64,000 nucleotides of DNA from Thioalkalivibrio sp. ALJ21 (lineage in GTDB: Bacteria > Pseudomonadota > Gammaproteobacteria > Ectothiorhodospirales > Ectothiorhodospiraceae): the NCBI RefSeq assembly GCF_000378605.1, contig NZ_KB905156.1, positions 229,209 to 293,208 of the forward strand. The letters run 5' to 3'. Shown piece after piece: positions 56,097 to 59,126 of this stretch. A program made the position numbers and the translations under genes. How positions within the stretch are numbered: the stretch's first letter is position 1; the number at the start of each line of letters is the position of its first letter. The notes beneath the pieces were generated by a model. It saw only the letters and a program-made list of their open reading frames with translations, did no database searches and was not told where the DNA came from.

Positions 56097-57035
56097 TCAA
56101 TCTACAAATAGCGAACTGACCGACTCCTCGCGGTTGATCCGGCGAATGGTCTCGGCCAGCATCTCCGCCACCGACAGCTGCCGAATCTTCGCACAGGCCT
56201 GGGCATTCGGCTGCAGGGCCAGGGTGTCGGTCACCACCAGCTCGTCCAGCGCCGAACCGTTAATATTATCAATTGCCGCACCAGAAAGCACGGGGTGCGT
56301 GGCATATGCGCTGACCGACGCCGCACCGTGCGCCTTCAGGGCCTTGGCCGCCTGACACAGCGTGCCGGCGGTATCCACCAGGTCATCGATGATGATGCAG
56401 GACTTGTCGCGCACATCGCCGATGATATGCATCACCTCAGACTCGTTCGCACGCGGACGGCGCTTGTCGATGATCGCCAGATCGGCGTCATCCAGGCGCT
56501 TGGCAATCGCGCGGGCACGCACCACACCGCCAACGTCTGGCGAGACCACGGTCAGATTGCCGGAGACATGCCGCCAGACGTCGCCCAGCAGCACCGGCGA
56601 GGCGTAGATGTTGTCCACCGGGACGTTGAAAAAGCCCTGCACCTGATCCGCGTGCACATCGATAGTCAGCACGCGGTCCGCACCGACCGCCTCGATCATG
56701 TTCGCGACCACCTTGGCCGAGATCGGCACCCGCGCCGAGCGCACCCGGCGGTCCTGGCGGGCATAGCCGAAATACGGGATCACGGTGGTAATGCGGCCGG
56801 CCGAGGCGCGTCGCAGCGCGTCCACCATGATGACCAGCTCCATGATGTTCTCGTTGGTCGGTTGCCCGGTCGGCTGGATCAGGAACACGTCGCGACCGCG
56901 CACGTTCTCCAGGATCTCGACCTGCACCTCGCCGTCACTGAAGCGGCCCACAATCGCCTTGCCCATCGGCAGGCCCAGGTGCTCGGCAACGCTCTGTGCC
57001 AGGCGGGGGTTCGCGTTCCCCGCGAAGACCATCAT
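56097..57035 (-). CDS. prs: Ribose-phosphate pyrophosphokinase (PRPP synthetase)
   Basis: Makes PRPP from ribose-5-phosphate and ATP for nucleotide, histidine and tryptophan synthesis. 312 residues from ATG 57035. [74 protein letters not shown] and the PRPP loop [12 protein letters not shown] are all present. The start could also be the next ATG (57032) or a GTG at 57053; in E. coli about five residues precede FAGN, which makes the GTG plausible. Conserved position downstream of tRNA-Gln. Confidence 0.96.
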
Positions 57036-57102
57036 TCGGCTCTTGTCGACCACGGTTTTTTCCGGTCTGGGTGGTGCGGAGCGGGTGAACGGGTCACCTG
57101 GC

Positions 57103-57131
57103 TCCAAAATAGACCCCGGCGTGGTGCCGGG
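57103..57131 (-). terminator. Probable terminator downstream of the tRNA-Gln locus
   Basis: CCCGGC (57115–57120) pairs with GCCGGG (57126–57131) over a five-base loop. On the minus strand the stem is followed by GGTCTATTTTGG, a moderate T run. It lies between the tRNA locus and the prs start and would end tRNA transcripts. Confidence 0.55.
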
Positions 57132-57143
57132 ACCTGTGGTGTA

Positions 57144-57258
57144 TGGCTGGGCCGGCAGGATTACGGCGCTGCGCGCCGCCCTTCGGGCCGCCGCCGGTGG
57201 CGGCGTTCTCTCGCGGCTACACCGCTCGAGTCGAACCCGGTTCTCATCCTGCCGGCCC
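57144..57258 (-). repeat. tRNA-derived hairpin unit (copy A) bounded by inverted repeats
   Basis: On the minus strand this unit begins GGGCCGGCAGGAT (complement of 57246–57258) and ends ATCCTGCCGGCCC followed by AGCCA (complement of 57144–57161), so it has 13-bp perfect terminal inverted repeats. The right end is identical to the 3' end of the tRNA-Gln gene including CCA. Between a T-loop-like GGTTCGA and ATCCTGCC lies a 69-bp insert (57162–57230) of short hairpins: GCGGT/GCCGC, CGCCGCC/GGCGGCG, GCCC/GGGC and GGCGC/GCGCC. The anticodon half of the tRNA is absent. Confidence 0.8.
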
Positions 57259-57301
57259 TTTGGCCGGTGCCGCGGCGGCAAGCGCCGCGGGTCTCGTTGT
57301 A

Positions 57302-57376
57302 TGGCTGGGCCGGCAGGATTCGAACCTGCGCATGACGGGATCAAAACCCGTTGCCTTACCGCTTGGCTACGGCCCA
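57302..57376 (-). tRNA. tRNA-Gln (anticodon TTG)
   Basis: 75-nt gene with encoded CCA. The acceptor strands TGGGCCG and CGGCCCA pair fully, and the discriminator base is G. D-arm AGCCAAGCGGTAAGGC; anticodon stem ACGGG/CCCGT with loop TTTTGAT giving TTG; T-arm GCAGG TTCGAAT CCTGC. This is the only intact copy in the window. It lies between ispE and prs, the conserved gammaproteobacterial position, with an upstream flank (AACAACGAGTAATT) also found before the interrupted copy. Confidence 0.96.
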
Positions 57377-57433
57377 ATTACTCGTTGTTGCCTTCCCCGA
57401 CCCTGCCCGGGTTCCACTTCCGGAACCGATGGC

Positions 57434-57453
57434 GGATCGGCTGCCGCCGATCC
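57434..57453. other. Hairpin replacing the 3' flank of tRNA copy C
   Basis: GGATCGGC (57434–57441) pairs perfectly with GCCGATCC (57446–57453) over a four-base loop. It directly follows the acceptor end of the interrupted tRNA copy, where the CCA would be expected. Confidence 0.6.
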
Positions 57454-57592
57454 GGGCCGGCAGGATGATGGCGCTGCGCGCCACCCTTCGGGCGCCACCT
57501 GCGGTGGCGTGCTCTCGCGGCTGCGCCGCTCGGGTCGAACCTGGCGCATGACGGGATCAAAACCCGTTGCCTTACCGCTTGGCTACGGCCCA
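57453..57592 (-). pseudogene. tRNA-Gln copy C interrupted in the T-loop by a 68-bp insert
   Basis: From 57592 the minus strand repeats the intact gene through acceptor, D-arm, anticodon arm (TTG) and into the T-loop, with one extra C before the T-stem. After GGTTCGA a 68-bp insert (57534–57467) intervenes. The sequence then resumes at ATCCTGCCGGCCC, so removing the insert restores a nearly complete tRNA; the last acceptor base is G instead of A and CCA is missing. The insert folds into hairpins GCGGC/GCCGC, CGCCACC/GGTGGCG, CCC/GGG and GGCGC/GCGCC, homologous to copy A. Probably non-functional unless processed. Confidence 0.85.
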
Positions 57593-58476
57593 ATTACTCG
57601 TTGTTCGGCACCTTCGTCTGCGGCGGCACTGCGCGGGAGCCACTGCCGCAGGGGCGAGACATTCGCCAGCGGCGTCACCCAGCTCCGCCAGGGACGGGGC
57701 TGTGCGGCCTGCGCCTGGCGGGCGGCGGCCTCATTCGGGAACATCCCGAAGATGCAGCCCCCGGTGCCGCTCAGCCGCACGCGCTCCGTTTGCCCGCCCA
57801 TCCAGTCCAGTGCCTCGCCAATGGCGGGGTACTGCCGGCGAACCAGCGGCTCGAAGACATTACGAAAGCGCGCGGCATCGATTTCGGGCGAAATTGTCTC
57901 GGCGGGACAGTCGCGTGTCAATTCCGCCGCGCCAAACATGGGGCCAGTGGCGACCGAAACCCCCGGGTCCAGCAACAGCAACCAGGCCAGATCGGGCTCC
58001 ACCGGCACCAGGCGATCCCCGACGCCTTCGGCCCAGGCCGCCCGGCCGCGCACAAACACCGGCACATCGGCCCCCAGTCCCAATCCGATCGCGGCCAGCT
58101 TATCCTCCGACAGCCCGAGGTCGAACAGATGGTTCAGTGCCACCAGCGTGGTCGCGGCATCGGAGCTGCCCCCACCCAGGCCGCCCCCGATCGGGATGCA
58201 TTTGTCGAGGTGCACCCGTACGCCAAACGGTGAACCGGCGGCATCCGCCAGCGCCCGCGCGGCACGCAGGCACAGGTTGTTGTCCCCGTCGACTCCCTCG
58301 GTCGACATTTCGAATCGCCCCTGCTCCAGCGATTCGAAACGCAGCGAATCCGCCAACCCGACGAACTGAAACACGCTCTGCAGCTCATGGTAGCCATCGG
58401 GACGGCGCCCCGTGATATGCAGAAATCGGTTGATCTTGGCCGGCGCGGGGAAGGCCACATCGAAATCGCCGCTCAT
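57583..58476 (-). CDS. ispE: 4-diphosphocytidyl-2-C-methyl-D-erythritol kinase
   Basis: GHMP kinase of the MEP isoprenoid pathway. 297 residues; FPAPAKINRFLHITGRRPDGYH binds substrate, the ATP loop is PIGGGLGGGSSDAATTL (near residue 95), and VRLSGTGGCIFGMF is the third motif. The start overlaps the lolB stop (ATGA). The final codons read RVIGP and the stop TAG lies inside the acceptor end of the interrupted tRNA copy (57583–57592 shared), so the gene's end is supplied by tRNA sequence. Confidence 0.95.
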   Translation of the reverse strand: MSGDFDVAFPAPAKINRFLHITGRRPDGYHELQSVFQFVGLADSLRFESLEQGRFEMSTEGVDGDNNLCLRAARALADAAGSPFGVRVHLDKCIPIGGGLGGGSSDAATTLVALNHLFDLGLSEDKLAAIGLGLGADVPVFVRGRAAWAEGVGDRLVPVEPDLAWLLLLDPGVSVATGPMFGAAELTRDCPAETISPEIDAARFRNVFEPLVRRQYPAIGEALDWMGGQTERVRLSGTGGCIFGMFPNEAAARQAQAAQPRPWRSWVTPLANVSPLRQWLPRSAAADEGAEQRVIGP

Positions 58477-59126
58477 CGCGTCGCCATATGCCAGTTGGCG
58501 ATACGCACGCGCAGTTCCACGCCCTCGCGCTCGAGGTCCATGCGCACCGGGAGCGCCATACCGTCAACCTCATCGAACTCGCCGAACTCGATCACCCAAC
58601 CGGACTGCTCGATACGGCGGGGCAAGCCGTCCTCGTCCGTCGCCAGCTCGTATTCGGCGTCCGGGGCAAGCAATCCCCGCACCCAGTAGCGCATGCCGGA
58701 AACCGGTATCGACTCGTTCGTCAGGTAGGCGACCAGGGCATCCGGGTCCTCGGCCTGGTATTGCTCGCCGGCCCGCGTGACCAGCACCGCGGGTTGATCC
58801 GGGGCCAGCGTCAGACGGCCACCCCCGCGCCCCATGGGGCCAGACAAGTCGAGGACATGGCGCTCCTGCTGCACGCGCCAGTTCAGCTGCGCGGACCAGT
58901 ATTCCGTCTCGGTGGAGAGCCCCAGACGGGCCGCCAGGCGCCACTCGTCAAAGGCCTTCACCACCTCGGCGCGCTCGTCGAAGGCCTGTCGTGCAGCGGG
59001 GTCTTCGGTACGAGGCATCGGGGCCGTACAACCGATCAGCACCAGCGCCACGACGACACCCGATACCCAGCGGGTCACTCCCGCCCACGAGGGCGCACGG
59101 GACTCTGGGGATCCAGACAACATCAC
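58473..59126 (-). CDS. lolB: Outer-membrane lipoprotein receptor LolB
   Basis: Receives lipoproteins from LolA and inserts them into the outer membrane. 217 residues with lipobox VLIGC (cysteine near residue 33). The LolB fold follows: FDEWRLAARLGLSTETEYWSAQLNWRVQ, DLSGPMGRGGGRLTLA, MRYWVRGLLAPDAEYE and ESGWVIEFGEFDEVDG-like strands. It is coupled to the TPR lipoprotein gene upstream and to ispE downstream, the usual lolB–ispE order. Confidence 0.93.
   Translation of the reverse strand: MMLSGSPESRAPSWAGVTRWVSGVVVALVLIGCTAPMPRTEDPAARQAFDERAEVVKAFDEWRLAARLGLSTETEYWSAQLNWRVQQERHVLDLSGPMGRGGGRLTLAPDQPAVLVTRAGEQYQAEDPDALVAYLTNESIPVSGMRYWVRGLLAPDAEYELATDEDGLPRRIEQSGWVIEFGEFDEVDGMALPVRMDLEREGVELRVRIANWHMATR

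Follow-up and report, generated by a model that had tools for sequence, protein, structure and literature searches.

RtT, represented by rtT of the Escherichia coli tyrT operon, is known as a by-product RNA of tRNA operons, and the palindromic elements of Rickettsia are short palindromes that also enter genes, tRNA genes included. In Rfam, the RtT family (RF00391) has the consensus AGGUuCGA...gUaAUCC, followed by a tRNA 3′ end and CCA. A canonical RtT contains the 3′ part of a tRNA only, lies downstream of a tRNA and keeps the CCA. Passages of three papers report RtT RNAs near tRNA genes in Actinobacillus, with Northern blot signals (PMC4986893), assign rtT-like attenuator candidates to BIMEs (PMC2965389) and mention a tandem GA motif in RtT (PMC7657543). 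Within those passages the assignment to BIMEs already hints at relatives away from tRNAs, and RtT as a T-loop insert or in a split tRNA is absent from the passages of all three papers.

We studied such a split tRNA in a window of Thioalkalivibrio sp. ALJ21, that is, the whole stretch of 64,000 nucleotides analysed, where a tRNA-Gln(UUG) copy is interrupted at one exact point of the T-loop. The joint reads GGTTCGA, insert, ATCCTGCC on the minus strand, and the core and the T-loop split are common to this copy and to RtT. The features of the locus are the following.

57535..57592, minus strand: 5′ body of the split copy, tRNA-Gln(UUG) from the mature 5′ end to the T-loop GGTTCGA, 58 nt
57467..57534, minus strand: RtT-type core insert, exactly 68 nt with several hairpins, between TTCGA and ATCC
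57454..57466, minus strand: 3′ remnant of the split copy, ATCCTGCCGGCCC, no CCA
57434..57453, minus strand: inverted repeat GGATCGGC..GCCGATCC, which abuts the remnant and occupies the place of the CCA end
57302..57376, minus strand: intact tRNA-Gln(UUG), 76 bases from the split copy
57144..57268, minus strand: canonical RtT element, downstream of the intact tRNA, 60.0 bits against RF00391

This layout agrees with an earlier note on the window, which had described a T-loop split exactly by a 68-bp hairpin-rich insert after GGTTCGA and an intact gene 76 bases away. The one additional C ahead of the T-stem, also recorded there, is real. The remnant ATCCTGCCGGCCC corresponds to the 3′ strand of the T-stem and the greater part of that of the acceptor stem, and the canonical RtT terminates in ATCCTGCCGGCCCAGCCA, the 3′ end of the intact tRNA-Gln(UUG). 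ARAGORN calls a 74-nt 'tRNA-Gln' at 57519-57592, taking insert bases as the 3′ end, and labels 11 of the 14 Gln split copies of Thioalkalivibrio as tRNA-Gln genes, which is a warning to annotators; the tRNA counts of genomes with split copies are probably inflated by these calls. The ispE reading frame (57583-58476, minus strand) terminates within the split tRNA, its stop TAG being tRNA bases 8-10.

Against RF00391 the split copy scores 37.0 bits at 57449-57583 (E 5e-5 in a scan of 2 kb), under the gathering cut-off of 45 bits, compared with the 60.0 bits of the adjoining canonical RtT and 48.7 bits for the related split copy of genome G298. By a score of at least 45 bits the window copy falls outside the family; by the flanks GGTTCGA and ATCC around the core it falls inside; and it lacks the third mark of the family, a position downstream of a tRNA whose 3′ end and CCA are repeated in the element. 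A core-only model (R1), flank-free and made from 46 of 95 non-redundant cores picked by eye, the underlying regular-expression list holding a few false entries, gives the window copy, which is absent from the model, 30.1 bits (E 0.0057 genome-wide). RtT is present in 26 of the 30 Thioalkalivibrio genomes at E ≤0.01, above the cut-off in 23, and in 45 of 369 sampled genomes of the class at E ≤1e-5; among 14 control genomes the one match is in E. coli. The earlier remark that no described element of this size at this site was known stands for the split-tRNA form, of which we found no report in the open-licence literature searched, and falls for the insert itself, whose relatives are the RtT family.

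The split tRNA-Gln(UUG) is found in 10 of the 30 Thioalkalivibrio genomes as 14 copies, three of them in tandem in G029, a recurrence that makes an assembly artefact unlikely; no Gln split copy was found in the other 20, some of which are incomplete. tRNA-Ser(UGA) is likewise split in 8 of the 30 genomes, with a shortened core in G026. Split copies of the genus sit upstream of the intact gene, with more split copies in between in the tandem cases. All 14 Gln copies match the tail pattern and lack CCA, so that the missing CCA remarked upon in the window is common to the whole set, and those with enough sequence shown are followed by a GGATCGGC..-like stretch (imperfect in G026). The extra C is missing from the six copies in G020, G025, G029 and G004, the four species whose copies are most similar, and an extra base is also seen in G003 (in one copy out of two), G021, G022, G001 and G026.

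Among the ten genomes with Gln split copies, the body has 0-1 differences in five and an ndiff count of 4-11 in the rest. For Ser(UGA), where five genomes were matched by script (G010, G025 and G029 being unmatched), the split body equals the intact gene of its own genome over 72 nt in four, and the fifth, G026, has 4 differences. The intact Ser(UGA) genes vary between species, although in those four genomes the split body matches the gene of its own genome. We read this similarity between split and intact copies as probable concerted evolution with drift.

The same arrangement recurs in other lineages, where whole or nearly whole tRNA bodies are split in the T-loop: Ser(UGA) in G157 (L232), Ser(GCU) in G298 and G408 (L198/L250), Ser(CGA) in G161 (L390), Val(GAC) in G284 (L398) and, with a somewhat altered T-loop, Arg(CCG) in G226 (L400). 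In each of these cases the intact copy starts 46-101 bases after the core (or after a few remnant bases counted with the core). Genus included, the split copy lies upstream of the intact gene at 7 of 7 tRNA loci, counting G298 and G408 as one, which were met while reading loci and not by exhaustive search. In the five lineages outside Thioalkalivibrio (L390, L398, L400, L232, L198, L250), split and intact copies match exactly from a point 0-3 nt upstream of the mature 5′ end, and the ungapped identity over 20 upstream bases is 0 to 11/20; in the two Thioalkalivibrio cases the exact match begins 13 and 20 nt ahead of that end. G412 and G298 also hold Arg(ACG) 3′ parts whose T-loop contains the core. 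Four loci with no ARAGORN tRNA (L067, L068, L101, L124) were considered as new split forms and rejected, since they hold tRNA 3′ parts; these, from tRNA-Arg(ACG) or tRNA-Ser, begin near the anticodon loop, are followed by RtTs and are probably attachment-site remnants of integrated islands.

Outside the T-loop, the core can be followed with the flank-free model. In the source genome it gives 15 matches at E ≤0.5, with 11 in a T-loop or tRNA 3′ context, three elsewhere and one weak, a distribution opposed to that of a common intergenic repeat lying mostly away from tRNA genes; the three non-tRNA matches are in other repeats, with the core after GNGGCA-like or GAAGCA stretches. A match at E ≤0.001 is present in 96 of 274 genomes of the class sample. 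Two sets of larger dispersed repeats, L369-L375 in G157 and L377-L387 in G281, exist both in filled and in core-free form. In G157, 35 places have the larger repeat running uninterrupted across the joint and 6 have it interrupted by the core, with the junction CCTGA^NATCG (7 of 10 loci). In G281 it is uninterrupted in at least 40 places, and the junction is CTGGGA^GAGGG (7 of 10 loci), the base following the joint being unlike between filled and unfilled copies; 14 equal-scoring core copies are among the matches listed for this genome, of which 11 were read inside the larger repeat. The filled copies share their flanks within G157 and within G281, so each set may go back to a single insertion, the larger repeat having spread afterwards.

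A tRNA-Ser(GCU) copy of G298 (L198/L306, G298:C141) has an RtT-type core in its T-loop and a second one in its D-loop; the latter scores 64.3 bits, the best hit there, and the sister copy of G408 has the T-loop core only. Filled and unfilled sites with constant core ends were thus observed in G157, in G281 and in the D-loop of G298 against G408; no unfilled duplicate was seen at tRNA-Gln itself. Nine standalone or D-loop core loci gave no RtT match against RF00391 except for the T-loop copy in L306, and their other matches (E ≤0.1) are two full tRNAs plus hits to other families, under the cut-off, in L306 and L389. Since flank-free hits lie outside T-loops, repeats exist with and without the core and a core is found in a D-loop, the core thus appears to be a discrete insert that favours T-loops, and a small non-autonomous insert is supported by the constancy of its ends, the existence of unfilled sites and the variety of its contexts. 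An outgrowth of the T-arm, another origin proposed earlier, is not needed, as cores are also found at a distance from tRNAs.

A preference for hairpin loops as targets was also considered and rejected: the complementarity of the flanks amounted to 65 pairs in 19 non-T-loop contexts, compared with a mean of 90.7 for re-paired flanks (914 of 1000 at or above the observed value). Y1 (RAYT) transposases, the tyrosine enzymes that move REP elements, co-occur weakly with cores. Y1_Tnp is present in 74 of 96 genomes with the core vs 100 of 178 without it (odds ratio 2.6, Fisher p 6e-4, descent uncorrected, both 274-genome samples being taken as identical genomes), and 22 of the 96 core genomes are without any Y1_Tnp.

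Our preferred reading, which we consider probable, is that the split gene is a tRNA-Gln(UUG) pseudogene carrying an RtT-type core in its T-loop, that this core is a small non-autonomous insert, and that the copy is kept similar to its neighbour by recombination. The element behaves like a tiny inserting element rather than like random decay, because the same T-loop point is hit in other tRNAs and other bacteria and a clean insert is found elsewhere. The proposal of a small element targeting the T-loop is accordingly the part of the earlier note that is now well supported, since the site recurs across several tRNA species and lineages and unfilled sites of the core exist elsewhere. The core would be a hairpin-rich, non-autonomous unit of ~60-80 bp with the ends C...GAGTA, mobile in the strict sense, which would enter after an A (usually GA or CA) and often ahead of another A. 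The T-loop, TTCGA^ATCC, fits such an insertion site and is a frequent harbour; canonical RtTs and split copies would hold one and the same core, the former in the T-loop of a partial (3′) tRNA, the latter in that of a complete tRNA. In the window, the donor of the core was probably the adjoining RtT, and recombination (concerted evolution) would keep body and tail near the functional gene. The split copy most likely makes no tRNA: none of the 14 Gln copies retains CCA, whose loss would keep the copy from yielding a tRNA, and a working gene lies after it.

The strongest alternative, possible although we doubt it, needs no new insertion: a tandem tRNA-RtT-tRNA-RtT array would have lost the stretch from one GGTTCGA to the other, joining a tRNA body to an RtT core. 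GGTTCGA is present in both partners, tandem arrays exist, and the core nearest to the window insert in the genome is that of the adjoining Gln(UUG) RtT (80.6%, any other core hit being at 68.2% or less). The Ser(UGA) split core, however, is not nearest to its own RtT (68.4% to the adjoining RtT, at best 74.7% to Gln(CUG)), and no RtT follows the intact tRNA in G161, G284 and G226 within the ~400 bases read. The split copies also lack the CCA end, which downstream cores keep: a complete 18-nt tRNA 3′ end including CCA is present in 55 of 67 downstream cores vs 0 of 15 upstream cores, the 67 including one misassigned Ser(UGA) split copy (L096), which is one of the 12 misses. The downstream cores, assigned by script, follow intact Gln(UUG), Gln(CUG), Ser(GCU, GGA, CGA, UGA) and Arg(ACG) in the genus loci read, and 15 further regular-expression hits without an intact tRNA in reach include the false cores L102 and L118 and the Gln split copy L141. 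In the window itself, direct insertion and fusion with the adjoining RtT by recombination would look much the same.

It is unlikely that the split RNA is functional, for example as a structured leader or an RtT-like RNA from an ispE-tRNA-prs transcript. The copy is kept in 10 of the 30 genomes, and in the predicted fold its acceptor strands remain able to pair, but this fold surpasses shuffled sequences by a modest margin only (z -2.25, 5/200), the tRNA body drifts in the five genomes with 4-11 differences, and the copy was not found in the remaining 20, incomplete ones among them. Two-sided changes at 10 of 12 predicted pairs among 46 cores indicate covariation, which belongs to the RtT family as a whole.

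An intron or self-excising RNA that restores tRNA-Gln is highly improbable: deleting the core in silico does restore a tRNA-Gln(ttg) from the window copy, but the scan of 56500-58500 found no Rfam intron family at E up to 1 (only tRNA, RtT and one chance-level miRNA hit), in line with the earlier remark that the insert is too short for a known group I or group II intron, the 14 Gln copies of the genus lack CCA, and an intact copy follows in each full-body case read. Of 78 core copies treated in this way, five yield a tRNA (two of these copies are from the source genome), and deletion at four shifted control positions never does; the set includes the two Ser(GCU) split copies L314 and L318, which gave no tRNA, and L232 lies outside it.

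Beyond the pseudogene with its inserted core, which remains our preferred reading, we suggest tentatively, and with rather little confidence, that RtT could be a family of tiny mobile elements using the T-loop as a safe harbour, whose insertion would accompany copying of the tRNA 5′ body and so place the split copy directly upstream of the working gene. An RNA-templated route, or one by fork switching, would fit the start of the exact match 0-3 nt before the mature 5′ end in the five lineages other than Thioalkalivibrio. The preferred reading would explain where RtT RNAs and the odd tRNA ends copied in them come from: the core would be an insert with a definite site and the T-loop one frequent address. 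What moves the core, why split copies stand upstream of a working gene and whether tRNA processing is disturbed have become testable questions.

In comparison with the described systems, the split copy differs from RtT in the whole tRNA body ahead of the core, in its upstream position, in the loss of CCA and in its score of 37 against a cut-off of 45. The BIME/REP palindromic repeats are likewise short dispersed palindromes, from which the core is distinguished by its ends, here C...GAGTA after an A, and the palindromic elements of Rickettsia resemble the core in being short palindromes that enter tRNA genes too. The RtT family itself is known; what is new is an RtT-type core in a whole tRNA, together with evidence that RtT cores are discrete inserts.
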